Positions 8,428-38,085 of a stretch of DNA of 43,214 nt are shown piece after piece; position 1 is the stretch's first letter, and the number at the start of each line of letters is the position of its first letter. The notes below the pieces were generated by a model. That model was not told the DNA's origin and searched no databases. It saw only the letters and a list, made by a program, of their open reading frames with translations. Location: the NCBI RefSeq assembly GCF_000482245.1, contig NZ_AWNH01000019.1:32499-75712 (forward strand). Direction: 5' to 3'. The stretch is from Leptolyngbya sp. Heron Island J. Its GTDB lineage: Bacteria; Cyanobacteriota; Cyanobacteriia; Phormidesmidales; Phormidesmidaceae. The position numbers and the translations under genes are program-made.

Positions 8428-8460
8428 TATTCTGCCGTCATCCTATCTACAATAAAAAAT

Positions 8461-8491
8461 AAAAAAGCCAGCAGCTACAACAGCTGCTGGC
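8461..8491 (-). terminator. Rho-independent terminator for the small minus-strand gene
   Basis: A perfect 10-bp stem, GCCAGCAGCT (8467-8476) with AGCTGCTGGC (8482-8491), loop ACAAC. On the minus strand it is followed by a run of six T residues (the A run at 8461-8466), so it serves leftward transcripts. It lies about 40 bp after the stop of the 54-codon gene and confirms that a leftward transcription unit exists here. Confidence 0.88.
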
Positions 8492-8533
8492 TGGACAGGA
8501 GCAATCGCTGGAACAGGAAATCACATTTTCTCG

Positions 8534-8698: not shown

Positions 8699-8832
8699 AG
8701 GGCGCAGCTAGAGAAGAACTGAACGACTGAGATCAAGCTATCACCACGCTCTAGCCTGCATAAAGTGAAGCGTACATTCTGTAATCAAGATTTAGGGTCA
8801 GAGATGTTTTGTTACAAACTCTCGACACTGTA

Positions 8833-9465
8833 CTACGTACAGACTGTTCTGACTGCTGTGATTAGTTGGCGCACTTTTGCTAAATCCTTATGGCCAGGGG
8901 TGGTTTCTACGCCACTGGATAAATCGATGCCATCGGGTGACAGCAGCGATAGAGCTTTGGCTACATTATCAGGACGCAGTCCGCCAGCTAAAAACCAAGG
9001 TTTTGGCGGATGAAAAGTTTGTAAGGCTTGCCAGTCTAAGGTGTGGCCGGTACCGCCTAGCTGTTGAGGGTGGTAGGCATCCAGTAAAAAGGTGTCAACG
9101 TAGGGGGCATAGTGGTTGACTTGTGCGAGATCCTGAGAATTTCGAATCCGCAGAGCTTTAATCAGTTCTACCTGGGGCATGGCCAACCGAATTTGCTGAC
9201 ATTCGGTCGGGGACTCTTGACCATGCAGCTGTACGCCGCTAAGTTGACCAATGGTTACGGTTTGCTTGATGAGGTCGAGGGAGGCATTGGCAAAGATGCC
9301 AATGCGGTCAACTGGCGGCAGGGCCTGGACAATGGTACGAATTGTCTCTGGGGTGACATACCGTGGAGATTGTTTGACACAAATAAAACCGAGTACAGTG
9401 GCTCCCATGGTTGCGATCGCAACAGCCTGGTCTACTTGAGTGAGGCCACAGATTTTAATCCGCAT
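8833..9465 (-). CDS. trpF: Phosphoribosylanthranilate isomerase
   Basis: A 210-residue TIM-barrel enzyme of tryptophan synthesis that converts phosphoribosylanthranilate to the carboxyphenylamino-deoxyribulose phosphate. The N-terminal [10 protein letters not shown] carries the catalytic Cys, and [17 protein letters not shown] carries the general-acid Asp. [11 protein letters not shown] and [16 protein letters not shown] form the phosphate-binding loops. Length is normal. It stands alone, away from other trp genes, as is usual in cyanobacteria. The ATG at 9465 is supported by the conserved N-terminus. Confidence 0.96.
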
Positions 9466-9676
9466 AGATAAAGATTCGGAAATCCAGTAACGCTATTGGT
9501 AAAGCCTCTCACTAAAATAAAGGCAGTTCTTGGAATTTGGGTAATTCGTAGTCTAAATCACATTCAGCCTCGGGGGTTTCCCTGGCAAAACCTGACACTT
9601 TTGGCTCAGTTATTTTATTAAGACCGTTCTTTAAATCCTCTTCCTGGGTCCCTAGGCATATCAAAGGTATATCACT

Positions 9677-10873
9677 ATGCAATCCGGTTGGCGCGTTGGC
9701 GCAATTTTCGGCATCCCCCTATTCATTGATAGCTCGTGGTTTTTTATCGTTCTCTTGATGACGTTTGCCTACGGCAGCGATCTTCGCAACGATGGATTCT
9801 CCTTCCCGATAGCAACTGTAGTGGGTTTGGTGATGGCGCTGCTGTTGTTTGGTTCTGTCCTGCTCCATGAGTTAGGGCATAGCCTGGTAGCACGACGGCA
9901 GGGGATTCAAGTTAACTCAATCACCCTATTTTTATTCGGTGGTATTGCCTCAATTGATAAAGAATCTAAAACCCCTGGACAGGCATTTCAGGTGGCGATC
10001 GCAGGGCCGATGGTCAGTTTTTTCCTGTTTTTGGCTCTAAGTGCGATCGCCTTAATTTTGCCAGCGCAAACGGTTGTTACCCAGGCAGTGGGGACTATTG
10101 CTCAAATCAACCTGGTATTAACTCTGTTTAACTTAATTCCAGGGCTGCCGTTAGATGGTGGTCAGGTCTTGAAAGCTCTGGTTTGGAAAATTACTGGTAG
10201 TCGGGTTCAAGGAGTGCGTTGGGCTGCCAGGGTAGGTCAGTTACTGGGGTGGATGGCAATTACAATCGGCATATACGCCTATTTAGCGACTCAGCAATTT
10301 ACCTTCCTGTGGTTTTCACTACTGGGGTGGTTTGCGGTGCGTAATGCGGGTGCCTATAACCGAGTCAGTGATTTACAGGATGCGATCGCTAGTCTCAAGG
10401 CGAAGGATGCCAGTGTGCGAGAGTTTAAGGTGATTGATGCGAATTTAACCCTGCGAGAATTTGCTGATAAACAGCTACTCCAGGAAGGCAAGTCTGTGAT
10501 GTATTTTGCGGCTTCAAACGGTCGTTATCGAGGCATGATTTCCCTCGATGATTTGCGTCAAATTGAGCGGAGTCGCTGGGAAAACATGACACTGGCTGAG
10601 TTAGCCCATCCGTTATTAGCACTCCCCCATGTGCGCGAAGAAACGCCGCTATCTAAAGTGATTACAGATCTAGAAGAAAATGAGCTGCGGCGTATCACTG
10701 TCTTATCTCCGGCGGATGCGGTTGCTGGCACCATTGACCGAGGCGATGTAGTACGGGCATTAGCGAGACGACTCAATTTTCCGATTTCAGAAGCCCTTAT
10801 TGATCGCATCAAAGAAGAAGGAGCCTATCCATCTGGACTACAGCTAGCAGCCATTGCAAGAAATGCTGAGTAA
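9677..10873 (+). CDS. Site-2 protease family membrane metalloprotease with C-terminal CBS-like region
   Basis: A 398-residue polytopic protein. The zinc-binding HELGH is at residues 64-68 inside a transmembrane helix, and the third ligand sits in FNLIPGLPLDGG (Asp160). Membrane segments cover about 10-215. The soluble C-terminus from 230 (VSDLQDAIASLKAKDASVRE to IDRGDVVRALARRL) looks like a pair of CBS domains, which bind adenine nucleotides. This is the SpoIVFB-like S2P class with CBS domains, which cleaves membrane-embedded substrates such as anti-sigma factors. The substrate is unknown and no anti-sigma gene is adjacent. Confidence 0.9.
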   Translation: MQSGWRVGAIFGIPLFIDSSWFFIVLLMTFAYGSDLRNDGFSFPIATVVGLVMALLLFGSVLLHELGHSLVARRQGIQVNSITLFLFGGIASIDKESKTPGQAFQVAIAGPMVSFFLFLALSAIALILPAQTVVTQAVGTIAQINLVLTLFNLIPGLPLDGGQVLKALVWKITGSRVQGVRWAARVGQLLGWMAITIGIYAYLATQQFTFLWFSLLGWFAVRNAGAYNRVSDLQDAIASLKAKDASVREFKVIDANLTLREFADKQLLQEGKSVMYFAASNGRYRGMISLDDLRQIERSRWENMTLAELAHPLLALPHVREETPLSKVITDLEENELRRITVLSPADAVAGTIDRGDVVRALARRLNFPISEALIDRIKEEGAYPSGLQLAAIARNAE

Positions 10874-17858: not shown

Positions 17859-18554
17859 TTATGCCATTGCTAGTCCCTGGGCGGAAAGCTTCATAACTTC
17901 GCGACTTGTGAATCCGATATTGCTTAGTGCTTCACCGTAGGTAATCATGAAGTCCTCTACAAGAGCTTCCTTTTCCATGCCTAGAACGGCGGCATCATCA
18001 GCTACTTCGTTTAACATCTGCCAAACCAAAGGCAGGTTTTGACGATTAGCTTCTTCTAATTCAGCCTTTGCTGTTTCAAAGTTAGCTTTGAGCCATTCCT
18101 CGCCAAAATTGAGGTGCATGTACTCGTCTTTGACTACACCCTCAGTGATTTTTCGAGCAAAATCATCGGCTACGGGAATGTAAATGTTATAGGCAGAAAT
18201 AGCAAAGGTTTCAATAATCAGGGACTGAATTAGTAAGCAAGTCACAATCTTGCCCTCATCCCGAGCTTGCCTGAAGTTATCATGCAGTTTGGAAAAGAAT
18301 ATCTTCGCAAACTCCATGTCTGGCGTTACATTCAGGTTTTTGCCACAGGCTTGGAAACCTTTCATGTGACGATTTTCCATGCGAGCTAGCTTAATGAGCT
18401 CATCTTTATGCTCGTTCAGGTTTTCAGCTAACTTTTTGTAGTTATCGTTAGCTTCCAATTCTCCTTCAATGACGATTGCGTTGATGCGACTGTAGGCATC
18501 TTTGTATGCTTCACTCTGAAAATCGAGCGTTGGGCTGGCCTCAAGCTGCGGCAT
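17859..18554 (-). CDS. ado: Aldehyde-deformylating oxygenase (cyanobacterial alkane synthase)
   Basis: A 231-residue ferritin-like di-iron enzyme that converts fatty aldehydes to n-1 alkanes plus formate. All six metal ligands are present at the canonical positions: Glu32 (EGELEAN), Glu60 and His63 ([10 protein letters not shown]), Glu115 (LIIETFAIS), and Glu144 and His147 ([14 protein letters not shown]). Length is standard. The pair ado-aar gives pentadecane/heptadecane in thylakoid membranes. The 354-bp region upstream should hold its promoter. Confidence 0.98.
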
Positions 18555-18908
18555 ATCTGTCCAATTCCTGCATTACAATAACCACTCGCTGTCCATATCC
18601 AAGCTATGGCCTAGCACAATTGCTGCGGTTAACTTAAATATTGACACCTGATTTCACACTTTACACCCTATCAGTATTGTAAAAATGTTTGTGGAACCAG
18701 CTAAAGTGCCGCAACCCTATTTGTTTGCAAGTATTCTAGGATGATCTATTTAGAATTTTTATCTATTAGATTGAAATTGATGCAAGCGATCGCATCAAGG
18801 CCTTGAATGCTGTGATGCTTTTCAGCGCATGCCCACAGTAGGCAATGAATTTAGACGTTATCGCTGTGATTTGTCTGGCTAAATTCTGGCTAAACTTATG
18901 TTGAGGCC
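18555..18908. other. Intergenic region upstream of ado
   Basis: About 350 bp with no open frame of note. It should contain the ado promoter near its left end. A HIP1 octamer (GCGATCGC) is at about 18786. I see no clear terminator for the gene that ends at 18909; the following sequence is AT-rich. Confidence 0.5.
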
Positions 18909-21543: not shown

Positions 21544-21546
21544 CCA

Positions 21547-21618
<72 letters not shown>

Positions 21619-21766
21619 TTGCAGTTGTGGAATCTGAGCAGCTGAAGGTTCATATTGTGTTTATCTATATATGTCTAGAGATATAGTGCAGGCGCTGTAG
21701 GCTCTTCATCAAGTTTCCTTGTTTTTTGGGGCACGCTACCTGAGATAACCCAAAATCAACCATGCT

Positions 21767-24487
21767 ATGACTTCTCGATCTGAAGCCCTCCAGACGTTCG
21801 TCAATTTCTGTAAGCAGTACATTACTGGTGATGAAAAAAGTGAGGCTCAGACATTTCTAGATCGTTTCTTTCGGGCGTTTGGCCATGAGGGAGCGATGGA
21901 AGCGGGAGCAGTCTATGAAAAGCGAATTCGGAAGGGTAGCAAAAAGGGTAAGACGGGCTTTGCCGACCTGGTTTGGAAGCCTCGCGTTTTGATTGAGATG
22001 AAAAAGCGTGGGGTGGATCTGTCTAAGCACTACTCCCAGGCGTTTGATTATTGGCAGCGGGCGGTACCGAACCGGCCCCGCTATGTGTTGCTGTGCAACT
22101 TTGATGAGTTTTGGGTTTATGACTTTGATATTCAAATTGATACGCCCATAGACCAGGTGCAGCTGGAGCAGCTACCTGACTGTGCTGGCACTTTTGGCTT
22201 TATGGAGGTGAGGGAGCGTAAATCGGTCTTTGGGAATAACCAGGTTGAGGTGACAGAAAAAGCGGCTAGCCGTATGGGGCAGCTGTTTAGGCTGCTACAG
22301 GAGCGGCTCATTTGTGAGGGGGAAGACGATCATCAGCGGGCTGGCCAGATTGCTCAGCGGTTTGTGTTGCAGTGTGTGCTGGCGATGTTTGCAGAGGACC
22401 GGGGGTTATTACCTGAGACGTTGTTTGTGCGGTGTGTTCAAGATTGTCTCGGTGGTGAGAGTTCCTATGACTTGCTTGGTGGGCTTTTTCGGGAGATGAA
22501 TACCTCTGGAAAGACGCCTGCCGGTCGATTTCAAGGAGTGGATTATTTCAATGGTGGGCTATTTAATGAAATTCATCCGCTAGCGCTGACTAAAAAGGAA
22601 TTGAAGTTTTTAGAAATATCTGCTCTGGAAGATTGGAAGAAGGTACGGCCTGCGATTTTTGGCAATATTTTTGAGTCAGCTATTGATCAGAATGAACGCC
22701 ATGCTCATGGGATTCATTACACATCTGAAGCGGACATCATGAAAATTGTTCGTCCGACGATTTCTCGGTATTGGGAAGCTCGAATTGAGCAGGCAAATAC
22801 GATTAAACAGCTTGAATCTTTACAGCTAGAATTGCAAACTTACCGAGTCCTTGATCCGGCTTGTGGGTCAGGGAATTTTCTATATATTGCCTATCAAGAA
22901 CTTAAGCAGATTGAGCAAAACTTGCTGGATAAAATTGCTTCAAAACGACGATCTGATCGTCGTGATCAAATACAAATGGGGTTTGTTACTCCTAATCAGT
23001 TTTTTGGCATTGATAATAATCCGTTTGCTGTGGAATTAGCACGGGTAACTTTGATGATTGCCCGGAAGGTTGCAATTGATCGATTGGGATTATACGAACC
23101 AGCATTGCCATTGGATACTCTTGATCAAAATATTGTTTGCAAAGATGCGTTGTTTACAGAATGGCCTAAAGCAAATGCAATTATAGGAAATCCTCCATTT
23201 TTGGGAGGCAATAGGATTCGTCAAGAATTAGGTGATTCATATTATGAAGAAATTTCCAAAAAGTTTCCACAAGTAAAATATCAAGTTGATTTTTGTTGCT
23301 ATTGGTTCCGTATAGCTCAGCAAAACTTAGCGCCCAAAGGGCGTGGTGGGCTAGTTGGTACAAATACCATTAGTCAAGGGAACAGTCGCTCAGCTTCTTT
23401 GGATTACATGGTAAAAAATGGTAGCCATATTCATGAAGCGATCTCAACTCAAACATGGTCAGGAGAAGCAAAAGTCCATGTCAGTCTTATTAATTGGATT
23501 TACGAAAAACCATTAAAGTTTTATTTGGACAATCAAGAAGTTCGAAGGATCAATGCATCATTACAACCAAACATAGATGTTTCAAAATGTGAAAAACTAT
23601 TATCTAACAGTAATTGGTGTTCTGAGGGAGTCAAACCTACTGGAAAAGACTTTATAGTTACTCATGAAATAGCCCTATCTTGGATAGAAAATGATTCAAA
23701 AAATCAAGATGTGATAAAGCCATTATCTGATGCTGGGGACTTAGCTAAAGCTCCTCATGGCAAGCCAAGTAGATGGATAATTGACTTTAATGAGATGAGT
23801 CTTGAAGAGGCTAGTCAGTATACTTTGCCGTTTGAACATGCAAAGACTAAAGTCAAACCTTATCGTGCAGAAAATAGACAGCCTATTTTGAAGGAACAAT
23901 GGTGGAAATATGAGCGTCGAAGGCCTGCGATGCGGGAAAGAATTTCTCTATTAAAATGCTATTTCTCTGTTCCAGCGCACTCAAAATGGTTTATTTTTCT
24001 TCCAGCACCCACAACATGGTTGCCTAGCAATTCTACAAAAGTTGTTCTTGCAGACGATTTCTATATCCTTGGAATATTATCTTCAAAAATACATAGAGAT
24101 TGGGTTAAAGCACAGAGTTCTACTTTGAAAGGTGATACGAGATACACTCACAAAACCTGCTTTGAAACATTCCCTTTTCCACAAAATCTACTAGCTAAAA
24201 CAGTGGAAACTATTCGTTCTAAGGCCTATAAACTCCATGAGTATCGAAATGGAGAAATGGAGCAAAAGCAGTGGGGTATCACAAAGTTATACAACGAATA
24301 CTTCGACGAACCAGTCAGCCAACTCCATAAACTCCACAAAGAGTTGGATGCCCTCGTCATGGAAGCCTATGGTTTTAATGAGAGTGACGATATCCTAGAG
24401 CGTTTGTTGGAACTCAATCTAGAATTGGCAGCTAAAGAACAACAAGGTGAGCCAGTTGTGGGCCCATGGGCCCACACGGCTGAGTAG
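21767..24487 (+). CDS. Type IIG/IIL (MmeI-like) fused restriction endonuclease-methyltransferase
   Basis: A single 906-residue polypeptide. The N-terminal nuclease has a PD-(D/E)xK-like site (Asp67 in FADLVW, Glu77-x-Lys79 in LIEMKK). A helical linker follows. The N6-adenine methyltransferase core has motif I DPACGSGNFL (363-372) and motif IV NPPF (475-478). The C-terminal ~350 residues should form the target-recognition domain. Such enzymes cut at a distance from an asymmetric site and modify one strand, so no separate subunit is needed, and none is present. Bases ~22850-24250 are visibly AT-richer than the two ends, suggesting a swapped recognition domain or recent transfer. It lies between the two tRNA-Thr 3'-end repeats. 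Confidence 0.9.
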   Translation: MTSRSEALQTFVNFCKQYITGDEKSEAQTFLDRFFRAFGHEGAMEAGAVYEKRIRKGSKKGKTGFADLVWKPRVLIEMKKRGVDLSKHYSQAFDYWQRAVPNRPRYVLLCNFDEFWVYDFDIQIDTPIDQVQLEQLPDCAGTFGFMEVRERKSVFGNNQVEVTEKAASRMGQLFRLLQERLICEGEDDHQRAGQIAQRFVLQCVLAMFAEDRGLLPETLFVRCVQDCLGGESSYDLLGGLFREMNTSGKTPAGRFQGVDYFNGGLFNEIHPLALTKKELKFLEISALEDWKKVRPAIFGNIFESAIDQNERHAHGIHYTSEADIMKIVRPTISRYWEARIEQANTIKQLESLQLELQTYRVLDPACGSGNFLYIAYQELKQIEQNLLDKIASKRRSDRRDQIQMGFVTPNQFFGIDNNPFAVELARVTLMIARKVAIDRLGLYEPALPLDTLDQNIVCKDALFTEWPKANAIIGNPPFLGGNRIRQELGDSYYEEISKKFPQVKYQVDFCCYWFRIAQQNLAPKGRGGLVGTNTISQGNSRSASLDYMVKNGSHIHEAISTQTWSGEAKVHVSLINWIYEKPLKFYLDNQEVRRINASLQPNIDVSKCEKLLSNSNWCSEGVKPTGKDFIVTHEIALSWIENDSKNQDVIKPLSDAGDLAKAPHGKPSRWIIDFNEMSLEEASQYTLPFEHAKTKVKPYRAENRQPILKEQWWKYERRRPAMRERISLLKCYFSVPAHSKWFIFLPAPTTWLPSNSTKVVLADDFYILGILSSKIHRDWVKAQSSTLKGDTRYTHKTCFETFPFPQNLLAKTVETIRSKAYKLHEYRNGEMEQKQWGITKLYNEYFDEPVSQLHKLHKELDALVMEAYGFNESDDILERLLELNLELAAKEQQGEPVVGPWAHTAE
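24458..24475. repeat. 18-bp perfect palindrome at the 3' end of the methyltransferase gene
   Basis: GTGGGCCCATGGGCCCAC is fully self-complementary and encodes part of the C-terminal VVGPWAHTAE. It is GC-rich in an AT-rich neighbourhood, and there is no T run, so it is not an ordinary terminator. Confidence 0.75.
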
Positions 24488-25352: not shown

Positions 25353-25523
25353 TTAAAACGGAATGTCGTCGTAGGTGGGCTTAGAATCCCCTGTAGATAA
25401 TCGATACAGGCTGATAGGTGGGAAAAAGACGATATAGTATCCCCCATTGGTCATCGGGTTTGGCTCGAACTGAATCGGTGATCGGAGTTCGAGAAACCAT
25501 TTCTTAGGCATTGATATTTGCAT
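25353..25523 (-). CDS. Small protein of unknown function, 56 aa
   Basis: The ATG at 25523 is preceded by AGGAAG at a good distance, which favours it over the frame's earlier start at 25547. The product, MQISMPKKWFLELRSPIQFE to PTYDDIPF, is short and aromatic-rich. It resembles no family I know. Its stop is 12 bp before the HNH gene start, in the same leftward operon. Confidence 0.6.
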   Translation of the reverse strand: MQISMPKKWFLELRSPIQFEPNPMTNGGYYIVFFPPISLYRLSTGDSKPTYDDIPF

Positions 25524-25639
25524 GGTGACTTCCTGCGGGACGGGCAACTACTCAACGTAGTTATGGGGTTTTCATTGATCGCCCTCAACGAAAGAATGAG
25601 GGTTTTAGGTGTGTGACAGTTGGCCATTTCAGGCCGGTT

Positions 25640-25864
25640 TTAGTCCATCGTTCCTGAGCATGCAAATATTGATGCTTTGATCAAGACGTCAATCGGAATT
25701 TCTCTGCCAGGAATATCCATGCTGTCTTCGAGCAATAAAGCTATTAACTTTGCCGTATCCGCAATTAAGACAGCTCTATTACCTACCTCTATCGGAGCAG
25801 CGTTCATATATCGCTGGGTTACTTCAGCACGTGATTTGGAATTAGGTTGATAGTAATTTTCCAC
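25640..25864 (-). CDS. Small protein downstream of the integrase, 74 aa
   Basis: A GTG at 25864 lies two bases after the integrase stop and is preceded by GGAG eight bases upstream. The product begins (M)ENYYQPNSKSRAEVTQRYMN and has a helical middle (LIADTAKLIALLLEDS). The open frame extends back to 25942 inside the integrase gene (ATG at 25912), so a longer form overlapping it is possible. Small proteins next to tyrosine recombinases are often excisionases, but no winged-helix pattern is evident here. Function unknown. Confidence 0.5.
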   Translation of the reverse strand: MENYYQPNSKSRAEVTQRYMNAAPIEVGNRAVLIADTAKLIALLLEDSMDIPGREIPIDVLIKASIFACSGTMD

Positions 25865-25866: not shown

Positions 25867-26799
25867 CTAAAACTCCGGTACGCTTACTTGTCTGGACTGA
25901 CTGGCGTAGCATCGCTGAATCATGGCCACGCTGGTTCGACATAAATAAGAGATGTCTTGCTCATCCAGGCCTCTTTTAACTAGCTCGGTGATAAAGGTAT
26001 GCCGTGCGTGATATTCCGAGAAATAGAACGCCACTTTGCGATCGCTTACCAACTTCTCAACAGTGGGCTTCCAGTAGCGGCTTTGAAAATTCTTATAGTC
26101 AAATGGGCCACCTTTGACGGATGAAAGTAGCCACCTGTCAGTTAAGTAGTCCCGGTCAAAGAATTCGCTGCCAGACTCTTGACGCCATAGCTCCCGGAGT
26201 AGCTCCTTTAGCTGGCTATTGCAGGGAAACCGCGTTGAGCGATAGGTCTTAGTGGGTTGCTCAATGCGGGTATCTACCGGCAGTGCTTTATTGATCAAAA
26301 TTTCACTGAAGTCTGAGGCCACATCCCCCCACTTCAAGGCGCTTGCTTCCTCCGGTCTACAACCAGTGAGGAAAAGGAATTTTACCCAGGGAGCATAGAA
26401 CGGATGGTCTCGTTCAAATGCTGAAATGATGGCGACCCGCTCATCGGGCGTGAATGCGGTGTAGTTATCCTCAGCCACCTGGCGGCGTTTACCCCAGTAG
26501 CGGGTGAGGCCGTCAAATGGATTGCTCGGCAAGTCCCCCATGGTGACGGCAAACTTACAGGCGGCGTTGAACTGTTGGATAGTGCGCCTGGTCGTTTCCA
26601 ATGCAAAGTTGTCTAGAAGCCAGGTCCGCATCTCGCGGGCATCGTTGATATCTGATCGTTCTTTCATCATTTTGAGTATCCGTTTTTCAAATTTGGCGTA
26701 GTCTCGAACGACGGTGCTAGGGGCCACGTAGGGAGTTTTGTATTCCACGTATGCAAGCCATATATGCCAAAGCTCATTAGGGGTTATCTGTCGATCCAT
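25867..26799 (-). CDS. Tyrosine recombinase/integrase
   Basis: A 310-residue phage-type integrase. An N-terminal SAM-like core-binding domain (residues ~10-105) precedes the catalytic domain. Catalytic residues: Arg148 in LTGCRPEEASALKW, Arg266 in YHARHTFI, and Tyr298 in IQRCYASQ as nucleophile. The usual Gly-His before the nucleophile is replaced by Cys287-Arg288, and the HxxR box reads Tyr263-x-x-Arg266. It overlaps the end of the primase gene by 23 bp, so it is translated from the leftward operon and not from its own promoter. The putative attachment core is about 1.3 kb downstream. Confidence 0.9.
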   Translation of the reverse strand: MDRQITPNELWHIWLAYVEYKTPYVAPSTVVRDYAKFEKRILKMMKERSDINDAREMRTWLLDNFALETTRRTIQQFNAACKFAVTMGDLPSNPFDGLTRYWGKRRQVAEDNYTAFTPDERVAIISAFERDHPFYAPWVKFLFLTGCRPEEASALKWGDVASDFSEILINKALPVDTRIEQPTKTYRSTRFPCNSQLKELLRELWRQESGSEFFDRDYLTDRWLLSSVKGGPFDYKNFQSRYWKPTVEKLVSDRKVAFYFSEYHARHTFITELVKRGLDEQDISYLCRTSVAMIQRCYASQSRQVSVPEF

Positions 26800-29700
26800 C
26801 TCCCTCCTGTGGTGGCATTATTTGTAGCCCCCCGAGGGCAAATACATCTGTGCGGCCATTTTCCTGATTCCGGACCTTAATCCGTTTCTTGTCTGCAGAG
26901 ATAGACAAAACTTTTGATGGGCGCTGTAATGCGTGCCAACCATCAGCGCTCATGTAGGCCAGGCGAATCTGGTTATCATGTCTGGCTTTATAAGGAATAG
27001 ATCCCTTAGGCAATTTGGTACTGCCGTTTCGACACCACGCTGTTGCTCCAGTGGGGATGACAATGTCCCCTACTTTCGGAATCAGCGGCGGTAGTAGTTT
27101 TTTGCCCTTCCCTTGTGACAGTTGGTCGTTACATTCCTCAACAGAATTTGGTTGCTTTAAAAAGGCCGAATCTTGCTGTGAGACAACTGAGACAGCTGTT
27201 TCTGATTGCTGTGTAATTGTTTCAGCGTTTGTGAGACAAGAATTCGTACCTACGACAGGTGCTTCAAATGAAGGATCTTCGTGGCGTGAAAATATAGACA
27301 CCCTTTCTGGTGTCAACTGCGTCAACTGAGGTTCAAAATCACCCTCTAAGCCTTGCTTGGTATGGGATTGGTCAGTTGACAAAGTGGTGTCAACCGGGGG
27401 AGCCAGTTGACAACTGAAATCTGTCAACTGAGATTCTGAGTGTGTGACAGTTTCAGATTTACCCTGATCACCCTCTTCATTAGTCAGTTGACGTTTTTTA
27501 TTCCAGTTGACATTCAGTTGACATATAGGTGTCAACTGAGATTCTTCAGTGCTGGCAAGAGTTTGAGATTGATCAGCAGAGTCAGTTGACTCAGTTGACA
27601 CTTTTTCTGGAGTTTCAAAATTTTCAACCCGCTCATCAATCTCGATGTACTCTCGAATGAGGTCAATAGGGATAGAAATACACCTGGCAATCCTCCACTT
27701 CGGATCGTCGGTGGCTTTACGGTCAAAAGCTTTCGATACATCCTCATTGCCGTGAAACTTCTGCCGGTCATGCATGTTGGCTCCACGGGCTTTGAGCAGG
27801 TTTTTAAGAATCTGCTTGTTATAGGCCAGCTTTGAGTTCTTATCCACCACATCCCATACCTCGTTGAGGCGGATGGATAAGGCTTTCACCACATCCGAGT
27901 TGTGCTCTGTGGTAAAACGCATGTTCCATTCACCCAGCTTTGCCTGGGACCGGAACATGGATAGACGCTCAATGAAGTCGCGTAGGCTGTCGGTGCTGGC
28001 ATCGGCATCGTTGGCCATGGTGCAGACCTTATCTCTGAGGTAACTCAGTAGGTCAAATTGAGATCGCACCCCAGCCATATCCAGTACAGCGTTGCCGTAG
28101 TGCAGGATGATAGCCAGATTTCTCGCCATCCTGGAATGCGCATGGGGCAAATATGGCGATAGCTGGTCCTCACATTGCCCGATCTCATCCAGGTCTAGAC
28201 CTAGCTTGATGACCTCAGGCAACGCACCACTGGCTTTATCCATAGCCCGCTTCATCTTTCGCCAGTCGTCCTTATTGCCACACTTATCGTTGCAGTCAAA
28301 CCAGAGCAGGATTAACCGGCTCATAGTGGCAGCGTTGGTTTCACCAGCAGCGAAGTTAGACGCCACCATCAAAGCGCTGTGAGGTTTTTGAGCATTAAAT
28401 TTACCGGCATCACCACCACGCACCAGTCGAGGTTTACCGTTGTATAGCCCCTTTAAAAATTCGTCTAGTTCAGGGTTGCGGTGTGGGTCATCCCAGCAAT
28501 GCACCAGGCCGCCGATCAGTTTTAGACGCTCGTAAGCTGCGCTCACTGAAACGTCTTTGAGCATGCCACCGGCCTTATCGGTGTGCATTCCAGAGATAGA
28601 CAACGCACATGCTCCAGCTGTGGTCTTGCCACCACCACCGTCACCGATCAGGTTCAAGATAGGAAAGCTGCCGGTCTGCTCAATAAACGATTGATAGTGA
28701 ACAGCTGCAGCGCCATAGCCCAGGGTTAATAAGGCTGGATAGATATTGACTGAGCCATAGAACCCAATCATTGACTCCACCAATTGCCCCATGGCATCGG
28801 CTGCAGCCGGATTATATTGAGGAACTGGTAACGTGTCGGCCTGGCCGGTGATGCCATCATTCCAAATCCACCGGCTTTGATCTTCGCTAGTGGTTTCGCC
28901 GATCGGTGTGAGCTGAATACTGGGGAATATCCAGTACCCATCAGACTGTTGACCCACCCGTTCAGCTAGCCGGTAGAGTTTGCCGCCCCGACTGTGGTAT
29001 TCATCCAGCCTTACCCTCAGCAGTGCTTTCATCTGATGGTTATTCAACCGGCAGATCAGGGCTCCGCCTAGAGCCCTCTTTAAAGTGTCCTCAAATTTGC
29101 TGACGCTGGTAAAGTCCAGGCTGGGCAGGAATAACCGATGTTGCTGGTGGTCGCCGCTGCGTTTCAACTGCAGGATGAAGCCGCCGCCGTCTGAGCTGGC
29201 CACCTCTTTTTCTATCTGCAAGTCAAAATTAGTGAGCGGTCGAAAGACACTGTATTCATCGTCGCTGTCATCGTCCTTACGCCAATAGCCCAGCTCACCA
29301 TCAACTGAATCTGGAGCCCCCCAACGTAGCCGCCGTTTGATATTGCGTTCTGCCATCTCCGCCAGGTCAATGGCTTCATCAATGGCGTTTTCTAGTCGAA
29401 TAAGGAGTTCATTCGGTGCGATCGCACCCTTATCCACCACATCTTTAATGTCACCACCATGGGGCATCTCTGACCAAATGGTCAGCGGATTGAGTACCAC
29501 GGCTGCGATGCCTTCTTTGCGGCATTCGCGGGTTAAACCGACTGAAAAAGCGGCCTCTCCAGTTAGGTCAAAGTCAGGGTGTATAACGATTAGAGGCTTC
29601 AGTCCTGCATCTTTAGCCATGGCCCAGCTGCCCGATAGTCTGTCGGGGATGTCAGCATATCTGGTCTCACCTCCTTGACAGGTCGTTGCGGTCAGACCCA

Positions 29701-30466
29701 ATGCCCGATATGTTTCAACGGCCTGCTCACCGGCAACGACAAATAGCACCTCGCCACGGGTGATCGCTTCTTTAGCTTCGTTCTCTCTATATAGTGGCCA
29801 GCTGCGTGGCCCCCGACCCATGGCCCAGTCCCCAGCATCCTCATTCCAGTACCAGGGGCGAACCTCCTTAGTTTTGGTGTAGCCCTCAAACCAGGCCCTG
29901 CGATCGCTCCACTGACGACGGACCACTTTGCCGATAGCTTTGTCTGGGTTAAGCGGGTCAGGATACAGATATTCAATCCGCTGGAGCTGGTCACCTGTTT
30001 CTGGATCTTCAACGCAGGGCTTAGCGTTCTTTTCTGGCAGTTCTAGAAATATCTGTGTCCCGCCAGGTGGCGAGCACATCAGTGTTTTCTTCTTCCGACG
30101 TTTTACCTCATGGATGCCTGGGGTGATGCCATCGGCAACGACAACTAGATCACCAGGGGCAATCGTTGGTTTCGGTGTGTCTACTACCCACTGGGGTGAT
30201 TCTTCACTCAGCTCCTTTGGCTGTAGCCTAACCAGTTCTGGGTACTTGCGGCTTCTCCTTCGTTTAGCGCCATCCCTTAAGAACTTAGGGCGGTTGTCCT
30301 TGGCTAAACCTTGGTATGTCCAGCCGTTAGGCGGTCTATTTGGTTCTGTCCATTGGCAGAGAACCATGTCCGGTTTCGAAGGTTCACCAATTAGAAAGCA
30401 GTAAGACTCGCGACCACACAAGGGACAGGCCTCACCCCTACGGGCTTCTTGGGCTATCTTGGCCAT
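26777..30466 (-). CDS. Primase/helicase-like replication protein (DUF3854/DUF927 type)
   Basis: A 1229-residue multidomain protein. A zinc-ribbon-like N-terminus carries Cys14, Cys17 and Cys37. A Toprim-like region follows (FVVAGEQAVETYRALGL, CQGGETR, VIHPDFDLTGE). The helicase-like ATPase has Walker A GDGGGGKTT (about 608-616) and a WDDPHRNPELDEFLKGLY segment. Residues ~930-1150 are a low-complexity, Gln/Ser/Thr-rich linker rich in QLT. The C-terminal domain has small beta elements (VGDIVIPTGATAWCRNGS). Such proteins start replication of cyanobacterial plasmids and satellite elements. Eleven GTCAACTG sites are embedded in the linker. It starts 63 bp after the stop of the preceding gene. Confidence 0.85.
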   Translation of the reverse strand: MAKIAQEARRGEACPLCGRESYCFLIGEPSKPDMVLCQWTEPNRPPNGWTYQGLAKDNRPKFLRDGAKRRRSRKYPELVRLQPKELSEESPQWVVDTPKPTIAPGDLVVVADGITPGIHEVKRRKKKTLMCSPPGGTQIFLELPEKNAKPCVEDPETGDQLQRIEYLYPDPLNPDKAIGKVVRRQWSDRRAWFEGYTKTKEVRPWYWNEDAGDWAMGRGPRSWPLYRENEAKEAITRGEVLFVVAGEQAVETYRALGLTATTCQGGETRYADIPDRLSGSWAMAKDAGLKPLIVIHPDFDLTGEAAFSVGLTRECRKEGIAAVVLNPLTIWSEMPHGGDIKDVVDKGAIAPNELLIRLENAIDEAIDLAEMAERNIKRRLRWGAPDSVDGELGYWRKDDDSDDEYSVFRPLTNFDLQIEKEVASSDGGGFILQLKRSGDHQQHRLFLPSLDFTSVSKFEDTLKRALGGALICRLNNHQMKALLRVRLDEYHSRGGKLYRLAERVGQQSDGYWIFPSIQLTPIGETTSEDQSRWIWNDGITGQADTLPVPQYNPAAADAMGQLVESMIGFYGSVNIYPALLTLGYGAAAVHYQSFIEQTGSFPILNLIGDGGGGKTTAGACALSISGMHTDKAGGMLKDVSVSAAYERLKLIGGLVHCWDDPHRNPELDEFLKGLYNGKPRLVRGGDAGKFNAQKPHSALMVASNFAAGETNAATMSRLILLWFDCNDKCGNKDDWRKMKRAMDKASGALPEVIKLGLDLDEIGQCEDQLSPYLPHAHSRMARNLAIILHYGNAVLDMAGVRSQFDLLSYLRDKVCTMANDADASTDSLRDFIERLSMFRSQAKLGEWNMRFTTEHNSDVVKALSIRLNEVWDVVDKNSKLAYNKQILKNLLKARGANMHDRQKFHGNEDVSKAFDRKATDDPKWRIARCISIPIDLIREYIEIDERVENFETPEKVSTESTDSADQSQTLASTEESQLTPICQLNVNWNKKRQLTNEEGDQGKSETVTHSESQLTDFSCQLAPPVDTTLSTDQSHTKQGLEGDFEPQLTQLTPERVSIFSRHEDPSFEAPVVGTNSCLTNAETITQQSETAVSVVSQQDSAFLKQPNSVEECNDQLSQGKGKKLLPPLIPKVGDIVIPTGATAWCRNGSTKLPKGSIPYKARHDNQIRLAYMSADGWHALQRPSKVLSISADKKRIKVRNQENGRTDVFALGGLQIMPPQEGDGSTDNP
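27312..27599. repeat. Cluster of eleven GTCAACTG/CAGTTGAC sites inside the primase gene
   Basis: Exact 8-mers begin at 27312, 27321, 27373, 27404, 27423, 27485, 27504, 27515, 27531, 27583 and 27592. Four read GTCAACTG on the plus strand and seven read CAGTTGAC. On the coding strand they fall in different frames, giving QLT, (C/R)QL, VN(W) and ST. Protein repeats would keep one frame, so the constraint seems to be on the DNA. Two pairs are spaced 9 bp and one 11 bp. Candidate iterons of an origin, or operator sites. Confidence 0.85.
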
Positions 30467-31187: not shown

Positions 31188-31235
31188 CATTAATGCTATG
31201 CTATGTCAGGAAGTTCATTTAGGCAAGGAGAGAAT

Positions 31236-31490
31236 GTGATAGGTCAATTTGTTCGAGTCCTTGGCATATCTCAAAGCAAATTGGCTCGGGAATGGGGATG
31301 CACCAAGGACAAGATCAATAGAGCAGCAAACGGTTTTGAACCAACGTTTACTACGGAGGAAATTCAAATTATTGATGCTTGGCTGGAATCAAAGTTTGGA
31401 AAAGGCTGGCGTGACTTGCCAAGTTCTTTCAAGTCAGAGGAGCCTATTGATTTCCTTGTCGAGTTTGAACAAAAAAACGCCGAAGTCTGA
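31236..31490 (+). CDS. Small helix-turn-helix protein, probable element regulator
   Basis: From a GTG at 31236, preceded by AAGGAG at five bases, the product is 84 residues (M/V-IGQFVRVLGISQSKLAREWG). An earlier ATG at 31203 in the same frame lacks a ribosome site. Residues ~8-30 (GISQSKLAREWGCTKDKINRAANG) have the spacing of a Cro/C1-type helix-turn-helix. The acidic C-terminus may dimerise. It follows two inverted repeats in the divergent promoter region, as a repressor that controls its own gene would. DNA binding is inferred. Confidence 0.7.
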   Translation: MIGQFVRVLGISQSKLAREWGCTKDKINRAANGFEPTFTTEEIQIIDAWLESKFGKGWRDLPSSFKSEEPIDFLVEFEQKNAEV

Positions 31491-31927: not shown

Positions 31928-32110
31928 GCAAATCTGCCTATGTGTGCCACTCAACGCCACATCTGCCACGTCAATAGGTAAGCGTTATTTCTGAATAAAT
32001 CACCTCAATCCATTACATATCAATCATTTCAGGTAAAAACACATGAACACCGCAACACTGGCAAAACTGACTGAACGTGCCACATCTGCCAATTCTGACC
32101 ACATCTGCCA
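31928..32110 (+). repeat. Direct repeats around the parM start, candidate partition site
   Basis: CCACATCTGCCA occurs exactly at 31957-31968, 32080-32091 and 32099-32110, with a diverged copy GCAAATCTGCC at 31928-31938. The last two are inside parM and in different reading frames (encoding ATSA and HICQ), so the sequence is likely kept for DNA binding. Repeats in front of a parM gene are the usual place of a parC-type centromere. Confidence 0.6.
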
Positions 32111-33080
32111 ACCCGTTGGCGCAGACATCGGAAACGGGGCTTTAAAGCTGGTTTCTAGCCATGGTGAATACCGATTAGAGAGCTATGTCACCTATTTAGA
32201 AGAGCGTCTTAGTCTGGGTCAAACCAAGGGCTATGTCGAATATGTCCAGGGGGAACGCTCCGACCTGGAGGGTAAACAGTGGATTGGCGGCATCAATGCT
32301 TATTACCATTCACCCCGTGCCTTGGCCCGCGTCACCGATGACAAAACCGGCAAGATTGACCTGGGTTTGCAGTTGTTATTGAGCGCTCTCTCTTTGCAGC
32401 CTTACCGCTCCGAATGGATGCTATCAATTGCTGTTTCTGTTCACGATGGCGCGACTCTCGGAAAGGGGTTAAAAGAGGCTCTCAGCGGTAGTCATACTGT
32501 TGTCCTCAATGGCAAGCGTTCTAGTGTTGTTGTTGCTGTCAACGGAGTCCTAGAAGAAGGGACTGGGGCGGTTTTAGCCTATAAGTCAAAAGCTGATTTC
32601 ACCAACGCATTGTTATACGATTTGGGCAACGGCACGCTGATTGTCTCTAGCTTCAATGACCTCTCCATGACCGCTCGCAGCTACAGCCAAAACGGGGGTG
32701 TTGAGAGTCTCATTGATGCTATTGCCACCAACGATTTAGTTAGGAGAGAGCTGAAGAGAGAAGGTGATCGCCACCTCATCCGCACCGGCATCGAATCCGG
32801 GCAGTTCACCTACGGCACTCAGTATCCAGAGTGGAAATTTACCGATGCCTATAAGCAAGAGTTACCCCGCTGGGTAGACACCGTACTTAAGCCCATGGTG
32901 CGTCCAACGGAAGATCGGATGGCATCCGCAACGGCTCTGCTCGCCATCGGCGGCGGTGCCTGTCTGCCAGGGATTAAAGGCCTGCTCGCTAAGCGCAATA
33001 TCCAAGTATTGCCCGATCCCCAGTGGGCCAATGCTCGCGGTCTCTACGCCTACGCCCTACGCAAAGTATCCAACCTATGA
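32043..33080 (+). CDS. parM: ParM/StbA-like actin-family plasmid segregation protein
   Basis: A 345-residue actin-fold ATPase. Phosphate-1 motif GADIGNGALKLV (residues 27-38), phosphate-2 motif YDLGNGTLIVSS (about 192) and adenosine motif AIGGGACLPG (about 300) are in the right order and spacing. ParM forms filaments that push plasmid copies apart, through an adaptor bound to a centromere. The next gene starts inside its stop codon (ATGA overlap), the position of an adaptor gene, and repeats flank the parM start. Presence on an integrated element suggests an extrachromosomal phase. Confidence 0.85.
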   Translation: MNTATLAKLTERATSANSDHICQPVGADIGNGALKLVSSHGEYRLESYVTYLEERLSLGQTKGYVEYVQGERSDLEGKQWIGGINAYYHSPRALARVTDDKTGKIDLGLQLLLSALSLQPYRSEWMLSIAVSVHDGATLGKGLKEALSGSHTVVLNGKRSSVVVAVNGVLEEGTGAVLAYKSKADFTNALLYDLGNGTLIVSSFNDLSMTARSYSQNGGVESLIDAIATNDLVRRELKREGDRHLIRTGIESGQFTYGTQYPEWKFTDAYKQELPRWVDTVLKPMVRPTEDRMASATALLAIGGGACLPGIKGLLAKRNIQVLPDPQWANARGLYAYALRKVSNL

Positions 33081-35231: not shown

Positions 35232-35537
35232 ATGAACCTTACTCATCGGTTAGGGGCAAACCTAGCCAAGCACCTGTTTATCATTTGTGCCTCGTCTGCA
35301 GTCGTGCAGCTTGCGGCCCTTTGGTTCCCACTGAAGATTGCACTGATTGCGATTGCAGGGAGTCTATTTTGTATGTTTGTCGGTCTATTTATGCTTCAGT
35401 TTCGGGGCATCATGGGCGGCCATTCGTGGGCGCAGCGGCTCACGTTTGAAGCCAGCACCGTTGGAATTTTGCAGTTTAGCGCTGTCGTCAGTGCCGTTAT
35501 TGTCGGAGGCCTGGTCACATGGGTAGCCATTTTTTAG
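35232..35537 (+). CDS. Small polytopic membrane protein, 101 aa
   Basis: From the ATG at 35232 (MNLTHRLGANLAKHLFIICA) the product has three hydrophobic helices: HLFIICASSAVVQLAALWF, IALIAIAGSLFCMFVGLFML, and LQFSAVVSAVIVGGLVTWVAIF. It overlaps the start of the ATPase gene by 19 bp, so expression of the two is coupled. A membrane channel or anchor subunit of the translocase is a reasonable inference; no family is recognised. Confidence 0.65.
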   Translation: MNLTHRLGANLAKHLFIICASSAVVQLAALWFPLKIALIAIAGSLFCMFVGLFMLQFRGIMGGHSWAQRLTFEASTVGILQFSAVVSAVIVGGLVTWVAIF

Positions 35538-37693
35538 ACACTGATTTACTTTCTCGCGATGTCCGTCACCGCATTGCGCACACCCTAGGACAGCTGATGG
35601 GTGCTTGCTGGGATGCCACCCCTAAGCGAGCCCTCTCCCTTTATGGGGCGGCGATCTCAGGTGCATTTTTAGTGTTTTACCCCGTAGAACGTGGCTTTTA
35701 CTCAAAAACAGGCCTTGAGTATCGCTGGCCCCCCGCCCTAGGGCTCATGATGACCAGTGCAGGCCTCACCCTAATTGGTAGTGCTTACGCCGGGTTAAAT
35801 GCCTATCAAAATGAACTGGATGAAGCCGAAGACGATCATCAGTTTGAGCATCAGCTAAAGCGACAGGCCTATCAAGATGCTGAGGTGAGTCGTGTCTATG
35901 CGGCGGTCTCTGAGGTCAAGCTGCAGAACAACGCCAATCTACCTGACCACATGAAAGAACCCGGACTAGTGGACCCGGCGATCTCGCAGAAGCAGGAGGT
36001 AGAAGAATTTAAAGCCCTAATGGGTGTTGCCGACGGTGAGGACGTACCCGCCGCGACTAAGACCAAAGGGTTTCGACGTGGGACCATAGATGGCTTTGAG
36101 TTTACAACCCGCAAAAACTCAACAACTAAGGCTACAGAGCAGTGCGTCAGTTTGCAGGGAAAGCGGAAATGGTGTGGTGTGTCGATTGAGAATCCGATTC
36201 CCCGCTTCTTGGCCGATGACCGTAGTTTGCTCGGCTACGGTACAACCGGCGTCGGTAAGTCGGCCTTCTTAGAAGCCATCATCAGCGCCGCCTACCAAAA
36301 AGATGAGTCGACTGATTTTGTCGCCTTTGTCCATAAGTCTGGCAATACGGCGCGGGGTGAATCGGTCAGCATGGCAGGTCTAGAAAACACCCAAGACCTC
36401 TACACCGTCACCAACACCATGCACGGTCAAGCGTTGATTAATGCGACGACTCGACTCATGTCTAGGGTGAATACCTTAGAAGCGCTACTTGAAGACGGAT
36501 CACTGGTCCCATCGTTCGTACTGATTGACGAGGGCAACGAAGGTACCAAGGCCCTGGGTAAAGCGGCCCGCAAATATGTCGAGATGAACACGACTGAGGA
36601 TGAGCGAGGTAAACCCATCAAGCCGGACAAACCCAGCTGGCAAGAAGATTACGCCGATTTTATTGAAACTCTGATTGTAGATGGCCGTAGTAAAGCGGTT
36701 CGTGGTGTGGTGTTTGGTCACATGACCACCAATAAGTCAGGCATCACCGCTGAGGCCAGAAGCCAGACATACACCATCGCCCTAGGTCGCAATGGTATTT
36801 ATGGCTCAATTGAAAAGCTGCTATCCGATGCCCGTTACATCACGATGAAAGAGACTCGTGAAACCTTAAAGCAGGAATTCAATACCTACCTCAAAAAACA
36901 CACGGCTAAGGGGTCTCCCGTGAATGTGGTGTTAGCCCTAACCAATATCGGCGGCCAGTGGCGACTGATTGTTCTACCCCAAAGCTGGAATATTCAGCCC
37001 CTCGTTCCCAACGTGGTGAACCCAGCCCTTGATGAGGATTACGGGTTTGAAGAAACGCCGAACGTCGCAGCCGTCACCGAAGTAGCCCCCCGTTTGCCTG
37101 TTGATGCTACCCAGCAGAATGACCCCCTAGCCTGTTACAGTCCGGAGCAAAAGCAGCTGGCTAGCGACTTTTTACAGTGGTTCAAAGCAAACTCTGACAT
37201 TCTCAATGACGGCACCGGATTACTAGACCTAAGAGTCCCACTCCGGTGCTGGGCTGCTGTCACCAGCATGAGTCAATTAGAGATGGTTTTAGAGGTACTT
37301 GAAACCCGTGGTTATGGTGAGTTTCATGAGGACCCTATCACCCACGCACTGTACTGGAGAATGTATAGCCGAACTAAGCGCCAAGAGCAGGCCAAAAAGG
37401 CCAGTCCCCAGTCGAAAGTTGATACTGATAATTTGGATATTCCAGAGGGCATTAGCCTTAAAGCCTTTCGCTACTGTGTGAAAAAACTATTTGAACTTCA
37501 AGTAGGTTCAACATGTACAGTGTCTGACTTTTACCGTAAAGCTACCTCGTTGCGTATCAATCATGAATTAAAAGTAGAAGATGTGCATAGAATGCTGTTA
37601 AGTAATTCACTGAAAAAGGTGATAGAAATCTCTTCAGGCAAGTACCACAGCAAGGTGCAGTTTACGGTCCTGTGGACTCCTCCAACCGAATAA
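35519..37693 (+). CDS. Membrane-anchored FtsK/HerA/TraB-type ATPase
   Basis: A 724-residue protein. Two transmembrane helices lie near residues 40-56 and 73-93, then a coiled linker. The P-loop ATPase has Walker A GTTGVGKS (241-248) and Walker B FVLIDE (333-338), with sensor-like VVFGHMTTNKSG. Residues beyond ~560 form a Gln/Thr-rich spacer and a C-terminal winged-helix-like region (LQVGSTCTVSDFYRKATSLRI), as in the gamma domain of FtsK. Such ATPases pump DNA through a membrane pore in chromosome segregation, conjugation (TraB) or virion packaging. The adjacent repeat array at 37.7-37.9 kb could be its recognition site. Confidence 0.82.
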   Translation: MGSHFLDTDLLSRDVRHRIAHTLGQLMGACWDATPKRALSLYGAAISGAFLVFYPVERGFYSKTGLEYRWPPALGLMMTSAGLTLIGSAYAGLNAYQNELDEAEDDHQFEHQLKRQAYQDAEVSRVYAAVSEVKLQNNANLPDHMKEPGLVDPAISQKQEVEEFKALMGVADGEDVPAATKTKGFRRGTIDGFEFTTRKNSTTKATEQCVSLQGKRKWCGVSIENPIPRFLADDRSLLGYGTTGVGKSAFLEAIISAAYQKDESTDFVAFVHKSGNTARGESVSMAGLENTQDLYTVTNTMHGQALINATTRLMSRVNTLEALLEDGSLVPSFVLIDEGNEGTKALGKAARKYVEMNTTEDERGKPIKPDKPSWQEDYADFIETLIVDGRSKAVRGVVFGHMTTNKSGITAEARSQTYTIALGRNGIYGSIEKLLSDARYITMKETRETLKQEFNTYLKKHTAKGSPVNVVLALTNIGGQWRLIVLPQSWNIQPLVPNVVNPALDEDYGFEETPNVAAVTEVAPRLPVDATQQNDPLACYSPEQKQLASDFLQWFKANSDILNDGTGLLDLRVPLRCWAAVTSMSQLEMVLEVLETRGYGEFHEDPITHALYWRMYSRTKRQEQAKKASPQSKVDTDNLDIPEGISLKAFRYCVKKLFELQVGSTCTVSDFYRKATSLRINHELKVEDVHRMLLSNSLKKVIEISSGKYHSKVQFTVLWTPPTE

Positions 37694-37699: not shown

Positions 37700-37740
37700 C
37701 CTACTGTTTTTGGGGGTAAAACACCCTCAAAAACAGTAGG
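37700..37740 (+). terminator. Long hairpin after the ATPase gene
   Basis: CCTACTGTTTTTG (37700-37712) pairs perfectly with CAAAAACAGTAGG (37728-37740), and the stem continues inward with GGGGT/ACCCT (one G-T pair). No T run follows, so it may act as a terminator or as the boundary of the repeat region just downstream. Confidence 0.75.
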
Positions 37741-38085
37741 TACACAGATACACAAAACCGCTATAACCCCTGTATGTCAGTCGGTGTACCGATACACAAG
37801 CCAATATTCCCCCTGGCGCAAGTACACAGCGCTGTGTACCCTAATTCACCGTAGATCCACAAGAGGTACACAAGCGATCCACAAGCGATCCACAAAAGGT
37901 ACACAGCAACAGATTTATAAGTGAAATCAAATGATTAATGCTTACAGGTGATGGCAATTTAGTGGTTGTTTTATCGGCTTGATTCTGAAAAATAAGTCGA
38001 TAAAACTAGCAGTAAAATTGTTGTTTTGACTGAGATTTCAAACGCCTCTTAGTTGTCAAGGCTGACAACATAAAAACCTAGTCTT
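37741..38085. other. Iteron-like T(A/C)CACA array plus AT-rich stretch, candidate origin or translocase-recognition site
   Basis: T(A/C)CACA boxes begin at 37741, 37749, 37793, 37823, 37856, 37867, 37878, 37889 and 37900, with one inverted box at 37833-37838. The last five are spaced exactly 11 bp. Boxes at 37823/37833 form the 18-bp palindrome GTACACAGCGCTGTGTAC (37822-37839). The boxes match the conserved 3' half of DnaA boxes but not the full TTATNCACA. Next to them (37906-38085) is AT-rich DNA with an inverted repeat GTTTTATCG/CGATAAAAC (37968, 37998) and a GTTGTCA/TGACAAC hairpin (38052-38069). No open frame. Confidence 0.75.

Follow-up and report, generated by a model that had tools for sequence, protein, structure and literature searches.

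Introduction

In Staphylococcus aureus pathogenicity islands (SaPIs), the replication protein Rep recognizes iterons that lie directly downstream of its own gene; these iterons are short, stand at the rep 3′ end, and are read by the Rep C-terminal domain, apparently as two hexamers (PMC7581432). The alpha protein of phage P4 binds its own repeats via a winged helix (PMC4234260), and plasmid pSK41 has its origin boxes within rep itself, where the DNA encodes a linker that tolerates in-frame deletion (PMC5703833). Here, we describe a stretch of 43,214 nt from Leptolyngbya sp. Heron Island J (contig NZ_AWNH01000019.1, positions 32,499 to 75,712; hereafter the window), which contains a primase-helicase replication gene (rep) of a putative integrative element and, within the 3′ coding part of that gene, an array of short repeated sites. 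An iteron origin within the replication gene had been put forward in a first reading of this DNA (the original prediction), and comparative and structural evidence supports this as the best reading: the array is probably the replication origin of the element, or an essential initiator-binding part of it. Such an intragenic Rep-iteron origin would be a variant of the SaPI/P4 Rep-iteron type.

To our knowledge, mapped origins are few for the plasmids and integrative elements of cyanobacteria. Among the literature matches listed, in a coverage that takes in few subscription journals, no title or opening part of an abstract mentions such arrays in cyanobacterial rep genes.

An Octamer Array in the rep Linker

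The octamer GTCAACTG occurs in 13 exact copies in the window, and a direct count confirms the predicted eleven copies, in both orientations, within 288 bp (27312-27599): four on the + strand (27312, 27321, 27423, 27531) and seven on the − strand (27373, 27404, 27485, 27504, 27515, 27583, 27592). When the whole window is shuffled, the mean is 1.37 copies, equivalent to about 0.009 per 288 bp, in agreement with the predicted chance expectation of fewer than 0.01. GTCAACTG is not generally dense in this organism, because the Heron Island J genome (8.06 Mb) holds only 264 copies in total; the same count rules out a genome-wide repeat family. A twelfth site, GTCAACCG (27389-27396, + strand), contains the core GTCAAC and is replaced by the exact octamer in the relative L041 (L010). 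The twelve sites form a dyad-symmetric array: the 5′ half (27485-27599, − strand) has six sites, the first two of which are 9 bp apart, and the 3′ half (27312-27430, − strand) has six sites in mirror arrangement, with the last two 9 bp apart. The site pair GTCAACNNNGTCAAC is rare, with 3, 3, 4, 4, 7, and 4 places in genomes G000, G002, G004, G005, G040, and G030, of which 2, 2, 2, 2, 2, and 1 are inside the array.

The array is located at 0.82 of the length of the rep open reading frame (ORF), within the linker that joins the helicase to a small C-terminal domain. The GTCAACTG copies fall in all three codon phases, being read as QL(T) in seven of eleven cases, as ST in three, and as VNW in one. 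The original argument that several codon phases exclude protein repeats is therefore correct as to the phases, and a repeated QLT peptide accounts for some of the sites, although not for all of them.

Selection at the DNA Level

Judged from sequence comparison, the array sites are under selection as DNA, not as peptide. Three recoding nulls, each protein-preserving or codon-keeping and run for 20000 trials, were set against the eleven observed sites: synonymous resampling yielded a mean of 0.85 sites (maximum 6), synonymous swapping a mean of 1.96 (maximum 7), and shuffling of codon order a mean of 0.08 (maximum 3), so that a shuffled-codon model does not reproduce the array. The array is kept in five relatives, the proteins of which are 82, 69, 69, 54, and 52% identical to the window Rep. 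In these, 72/72, 65/72, 65/72, 67/72, and 66/72 of the GTCAAC-core bases are identical (90-100%), compared with identities of 0.78, 0.52, 0.49, 0.66, and 0.48 for non-core linker bases; third codon positions of unchanged amino acids are identical in 21/21, 16/17, 16/17, 21/21, and 18/18 cases within the cores, compared with 0.41-0.54 elsewhere in the gene. The linkers of the five relatives retain 12, 10, 10, 12, and 11 whole GTCAAC cores, in unchanged order and, except for a 36-bp mid-array shortening in L050 and L052, with unchanged spacing. Thus, the array is a DNA feature, as is evident from the three codon phases, from recoding nulls that reach at most seven sites, and from the frozen cores.

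The sites also persist where the linker protein diverges, a check that the original prediction had proposed. In L044 and L012, the result is the reverse of the refuting outcome named there: the peptide CQLNVNWNKKRQLT has become CQSTVNLKEKSQPI, yet 10 of 12 GTCAAC cores are retained. These two loci have no exact GTCAACTG and have lost the TG flank; six sites are GTCAACCT, two are GTCAATCT, and the others have other flanks. In sequence terms, much of the L044/L012 array is thus changed in concert.

Array Layout and Dyad Symmetry

In gene orientation, with F and R denoting the two site orientations, the window array has the plan F0 F9 R61 F77 F88 F107 R169 F188 R203 F219 R271 R280. Ten of its 12 sites have a mirror partner, against a maximum of eight in 500 null arrays. 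The plan of the L126 array, which is built from GATCATCA, is F0 F9 R64 F77 F87 F97 R115 R136 R147 F160 R214 R223; despite the different octamers, four of the five sites at each end lie within 3 bp of their window counterparts (P 0.002 and 0.001), in a comparison that covers already-seen arrays only and uses fixed windows picked from the site lists of these arrays. L128 shares the site positions of the window at its 5′ end (P 0.015), though not at its 3′ end (P 0.11). Of the 13 arrays tested for dyad symmetry, nine reach P 0.01 or better, and L039 had P 0.044.

Domains of the Replication Protein

The rep gene (26777-30466, − strand, as are all of its domains) encodes a 1229-aa primase-helicase replication protein. 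The N-terminal part (29357-30466) presumably comprises a zinc finger and a TOPRIM-like primase, a reading that we base on weak motifs; the related L039 protein has a Toprim_3 match that is below cut-off (E 0.03). There follow an AAA+ helicase (SF3/DUF927-like; residues 520-817; 28016-28909), a predicted winged-helix DNA-binding domain (residues 818-942; 27641-28015) that is encoded just 5′ of the array and is the proposed iteron reader, and, after the linker, the C-terminal domain (26807-27106), no homologue of which was detected by tblastn (E ≤ 1e-4) within 79 kb and 40 kb around the array-keeping genes of G040 and G030. The window Rep matches no Pfam family up to E 1 (hence no DUF927 match over the gathering score), including RepA_N, and no DUF3854 or CyRepA1 model in Pfam or NCBIfam (0 families); DUF927 matches that are below cut-off were obtained for L040, L050, and L053.

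In the predicted model, the helicase and winged helix of Rep resemble those of the staphylococcal cassette chromosome (SCC) protein SCCmec Cch and of SaPIbov1 Rep. Modeled with AlphaFold (mean pLDDT 77), residues 520-985 have SCCmec Cch (5dgk_B) as their best structural match (Z 22.1, 8.2 Å, 345 residues), which is also the top Foldseek match, followed by SaPIbov1 Rep (8tch_B; Z 18.2, 10.2 Å, 331 residues), with MCM proteins below both (Z 14.6 and less); this fold comparison rests on a predicted model, and the rmsd values are high. Residues 818-942 modeled alone (pLDDT 89) match TcpK, the oriT-binding relaxosome protein of pCW3 (Z 9.1, 2.6 Å, 92 residues). In a Foldseek search, residues 818-942 on their own had no match under E 1 (best E 1.2), and a sequence search for relatives of solved structure gave a best E of 0.21.

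Arrays in Other Replication Genes

A scan for any clustered 8-mer showed that remoter relatives lacking GTCAACTG often carry another octamer at the corresponding place of rep: GATCATCA in 12 copies in both L126 and L127, GATCACCA in 10 copies in L128, TGTAACCG in seven copies in L039 (Nostoc sp. UHCC 0870 plasmid), and ATGTAACT in eight copies in L040 (Gloeothece plasmid Cy782205). In L129, nine copies of CAGTAACC span the stop codon; in L133, ten copies of GGTACCAA stand 346 bp past the stop codon, and the L137 array is likewise located beyond it. HIP1-like octamers were considered as a source of arrays and rejected, and 8-mers containing CGATCG were excluded from the later array scans, a filter that could also hide true arrays.

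Three sets of genes were scanned, with crude Poisson E-values for clusters and with cut-offs that were fixed after the first scan; the sets mostly omit the weaker places of the profile search. Set A, the window's Rep family, comprises the 17 places with long matches in the profile search plus L040 (the UHCC 0870 plasmid being counted once, and the close pairs L044/L012 and L126/L127 both standing within the tally). Here, a 3′-end array is present in 12 of 18 at E<1e-6 (10 intragenic, one across the stop codon, and one downstream) and in 15 of 18 at the looser E<1e-3; the common part that aligns among the array-bearing members consists of the helicase plus the domain after it. Set B comprises 40 DUF3854/CyRepA1 genes, hand-chosen for spread among the matches listed, 38 of which have an uncut 3′ end (L146 and L180 are cut) and two further ones of which have under 700 bp of downstream sequence; none of the 40 has an array at E<1e-6, and one has a weak array, 690 bp downstream, at E<1e-3. 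Set C comprises 20 other primase-helicases (weak profile matches and other selected matches, with L054, L055, and L061 added after the first scan had shown arrays in them), and has arrays in 10 at E<1e-6 and in 12 at E<1e-3. The carriers in set C include AAA_25 types (L054, L055, L187, and L061, the gene of which is cut at the 3′ end, such that its array position of 0.93 refers to the present part), DUF5906 types (L191, L192), and VapE types (L136, L193). L140 stands outside set C, and no cluster is listed in it. Clusters elsewhere at E<1e-6 numbered one in 352 kb, three in 377 kb, and one in 317 kb for sets A, B, and C, respectively, and 2982 kb of null sequence contained none.

A looser scan of the 12 loci without a strong array gave AGTTACC in eight copies in L134, some 280 bp past the end of the gene, AAGTTACC in five copies downstream in L132, only weak clusters in L144, L188, and L189, and nothing in L130, L131, L138, L142, L143, L190, and L194. 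Phage P4, scanned at slightly looser settings (window 400, minimum four copies), served as a positive control: its ori was recovered with 8-mers (E 8e-7) and its cis-required region, crr, with 7-mers (E 2e-6), although crr alone reached only E 0.07 with 8-mers.

Other repeats were seen in the same loci. The DUF5906 Reps L192 (10008-10291) and L191 (9972-10279) have intragenic, strictly inverted arrays, RRRRRRRFFFFF and RRRRRRFFFF, respectively. Three of the 40 DUF3854 controls have same-orientation direct repeats just upstream of rep that resemble classical upstream iterons: GGGTTCTA in six copies (L166, 6126-6431), AAAGTACT in six copies (L179, 6353-6670), and CGTATCAC in five copies (L159, 3749-4041). 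L055 has a separate cluster of eight ACGCCGAA copies (18501-18608), outside long ORFs but on the same stretch as the Rep gene, and a second short array of GTCCACAA or GGTCCACA occurs in L041 (4432-4656), L047 (11303-11504), and L045 (3166-3332). The L132 Rep (7751-10774) is a hybrid, with an N-terminal part that matches many CyRepA1 plasmid proteins and a middle part that matches the SaPI/Cch-like helicase family; primase modules seem to be swapped.

The Putative Integrative Element and Its Genes

The window contains what looks like an integrative element beside a tRNA gene, with genes for an integrase, Rep, a helix-turn-helix (HTH) protein, ParM, and an MmeI-like restriction-modification enzyme. 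This reading follows from three observations: similarity to the G002 and G004 chromosomes reaches 21619-21620, the end of a tRNA-Thr(GGT) gene (21546-21619, + strand) that is the likely integration site, and then breaks; G002 has a copy of about 228 bp of the tRNA-Thr region as a direct repeat at the far end, 20.5 kb away; and the rep genes of G004 and G005 lie within contigs of 8.16 and 7.69 Mb. In contig C212 of G002 (Leptolyngbya cf. ectocarpi), tRNA-Thr-containing direct repeats at 4977-5203 and 25437-25756 flank the related element. The other end of the element was not found within the window. A genome contig scan returned one locus, the already known relative in Leptolyngbya cf. ectocarpi LEGE 11479, and a comparison of the window Rep with phage records and viral contigs returned no match.

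Directly after the tRNA-Thr gene, past the similarity break, is the gene for the MmeI-like fused restriction-modification enzyme (21767-24487; Pfam MmeI domains). A tyrosine integrase gene (25867-26799, − strand) overlaps the rep 3′ end. Divergent from rep is the gene for the small HTH-like regulator (31203-31490, + strand; phrog_4779, E 1.8e-4), which is disfavored as the array binder (see below), followed by a gene for a ParM-like actin ATPase (32043-33080, + strand). Copies of CATCTGCC at 31960, 32083, and 32102, around the parM start, are possibly ParR binding sites. Further along is a 723-aa ATPase-like ORF (35519-37693); close to its 3′ end, four copies of CTGTGTAC (37740-37906) form a weak cluster (E 0.026), the window counterpart of the second short array in L041, L047, and L045.

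Proposed Replication From the Array and Alternative Explanations

If the array is the origin, the Rep winged-helix domain would bind the iterons, and the two mirrored six-site halves would each seed one AAA+ hexamer, with the two hexamers facing oppositely; the paired hexamers would open the DNA, and the fused primase would then prime synthesis. Since the gene for the putative reader carries the array within its linker, reader and iterons would be coupled and may change together, which would give each element its own replication specificity.

Several observations weigh against an origin at the array. The strand-asymmetry check suggested in the original prediction did not turn out in its favor, in that GC skew does not turn at the array in five complete array plasmids: its extremes are 1.1-20 kb away, with minima at 5.2, 20.2, 6.5, 10.1, and 1.1 kb from the array (the nearest being in a 22.6-kb plasmid). 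No AT-rich unwinding region stands out at the window array (AT 0.56 vs. 0.49 for the gene), and there is no exact DnaA box within 500 bp of it; one exact DnaA box is near the L127 array, and the arrays overall have no convincing DnaA or AT-rich signal. Two of the 18 family members, L130 and L131, have no array even in the looser scan. Dyad symmetry is not significant for the L128, L137, and L044 arrays, and the site positions of L129, L053, L039, L040, and L137 do not match those of the window beyond chance. The similarity of residues 818-942 to SaPIbov1 Rep 400-557 (8tch_B) is modest (Z 6.8, 3.3 Å, 94 residues). The repA gene of phage N15 holds an internal origin, and as a second positive control it gave no 8-mer array; the array scan therefore does not define origins. 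L061 (AAA_25) and L193 (VapE) have a similar GTTGACA core in Reps with unrelated helicases, which implies that different domains may read the arrays of different Reps; in L193, moreover, a DUF3854 domain, a VapE helicase, and an array occur together, so that DUF3854 as such is compatible with an array.

Beyond the window, we tentatively consider, at somewhat less than even confidence, that there is a class of intragenic origins across cyanobacterial plasmids and integrative elements. In such a class, a dyad of about 12 sites of 8 bp each (six per hexamer) would lie in the primase-helicase linker in several unrelated helicase families (SaPI/Cch-type, AAA_25, DUF5906/D5, and VapE); the plan would stay the same as all sites switch to another 8-mer together with the reader, such that rep would be an indivisible cassette with its own replication identity code. 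If the origin reading is right, an origin could be read directly from the rep 3′ part in several Rep families, and one short segment would hold initiator and origin together. Relatives with the same layout and different 8-mers would make initiator-iteron co-evolution directly testable, and codon optimization of a rep gene of this kind may abolish its origin.

Among the alternatives to an origin, the array might instead be an accessory site that is bound by Rep for copy-number control or handcuffing, with synthesis starting elsewhere. The P4 crr comes closest to the array in position and layout and, by its annotation, is a region required in cis apart from ori, and the lack of a prominent AT-rich element in the array would also fit; however, P4 has a second cluster at ori, whereas the cluster scan found no second strong 8-mer cluster in the window (next best E 0.026). 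We regard an accessory role as unlikely.

Another element protein might bind the array, as an HTH operator, a ParM-type centromere, or integrase arm sites, given that genes for all three proteins are near the array and that centromeres and arm sites are likewise short repeats. Yet tblastn (E ≤ 1e-4) detected no homologue of the HTH, 94-aa, ParM, or integrase protein in 79 kb around the G040 gene or in 40 kb around the G030 gene (only about 4 kb of it on one side), although G030 and G040 both keep the array; the search took in neither the other parts of these genomes nor unrelated proteins of the same role. The HTH homologue is also absent from the G002 contig at this threshold, though present in G004 and G005; the HTH protein, the originally suggested alternative binder, is thus without a homologue near three of the five array-keeping relatives (G002, G040, G030) and unlikely as the common binder. 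Separate repeats, CATCTGCC, stand at the parM start, and the arm sites of P4 int are a separate repeat set. A different element protein as the reader is therefore very improbable.

We give equally little credence to a hairpin as the selected feature, by which the dyad would fold as a single-stranded DNA origin, a cruciform, or an mRNA structure. Predicted RNA folding is strong (z −6.0 for the window, −11.7 for L126), and pRN plasmids conserve a stem-loop without its sequence, that of pRN1 being 3′ of orf904 (PMC4234260). Most of the stability is nevertheless due to the occurrence of the 8-mer in the two orientations (random orders with shuffled spacers have a mean of −85.1 vs. −99.7 for the window), and structure alone would not give twelve sites one common 8-mer. 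The real site order does fold better, since only 0.7% (window, L126) to 3.3% (L041) of random orders reach the observed value.

A cyanobacterial host factor that recognizes GTTGAC as the place to load enzymes of replication or repair would account for the recurrence of the GTTGACA core in the unrelated rep genes L061 and L193. However, many arrays use other 8-mers, the flank in L044/L012 is altered in concert, and, by a rough estimate, a 6-mer shared by some pair among about 20 motifs is expected by chance; such a factor is highly doubtful. Finally, a low-complexity QLT peptide that incidentally repeats its DNA has a negligible probability, the QL(T) reading of seven of the 11 sites being outweighed by the three codon phases, both orientations, the recoding nulls, the frozen third positions, and the arrays beyond (L133, L137) or across (L129) the stop codon.

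Comparison With Known Systems

The lambda O gene, cited as precedent in the original prediction, has initiator binding sites within the initiator gene; the lambda origin consists of four long iterons, all in direct order, with an AT-rich stretch next to them, and O is not known to be a helicase. By contrast, the window array has twelve 8-bp sites in both orientations, with no AT-rich stretch standing out, and nearer precedents are the SaPI/SCC Rep-ori, P4 alpha-crr, and the pSK41 origin inside rep. The CyRepA1/DUF3854 proteins are, like the window Rep, primase-helicase Reps of cyanobacterial plasmids, and L132 joins a DUF3854-type N-terminus to a window-type helicase; the surveyed DUF3854 genes differ in having no such array at E<1e-6 (0/40), and the word “iteron” is absent from the main text of the CyRepA papers examined.

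The pSK41 Rep is not known to have a helicase or primase domain, and it differs from the window Rep in belonging to the RepA_N family, with four boxes and an N-terminal reader. The likeness lies in the intragenic origin boxes in linker DNA and in the winged-helix reader (PMC5703833). P4 shares with the window a multifunctional primase-helicase and 8-bp repeats in both orientations at the gene 3′ end, with a 9-bp pair; the crr repeats, beside the alpha gene, are arranged F0 F9 R52 R70 F84. Unlike the single window cluster with its other 8-mer, the P4 repeats have the sequence GGTGAACA, lie outside the gene, and form two clusters (crr and ori). SaPI and SCC elements, with the self-loading helicases SaPIbov1 Rep and SCCmec Cch, share with the window the AAA+ helicase fold and a DNA-binding domain directly after the helicase (both predicted for the window Rep) and multiple short iterons at the rep 3′ end, and differ in that the window iterons are within the coding sequence rather than downstream of rep, and in that the window Rep has a fused primase and a further C-terminal domain past the array.

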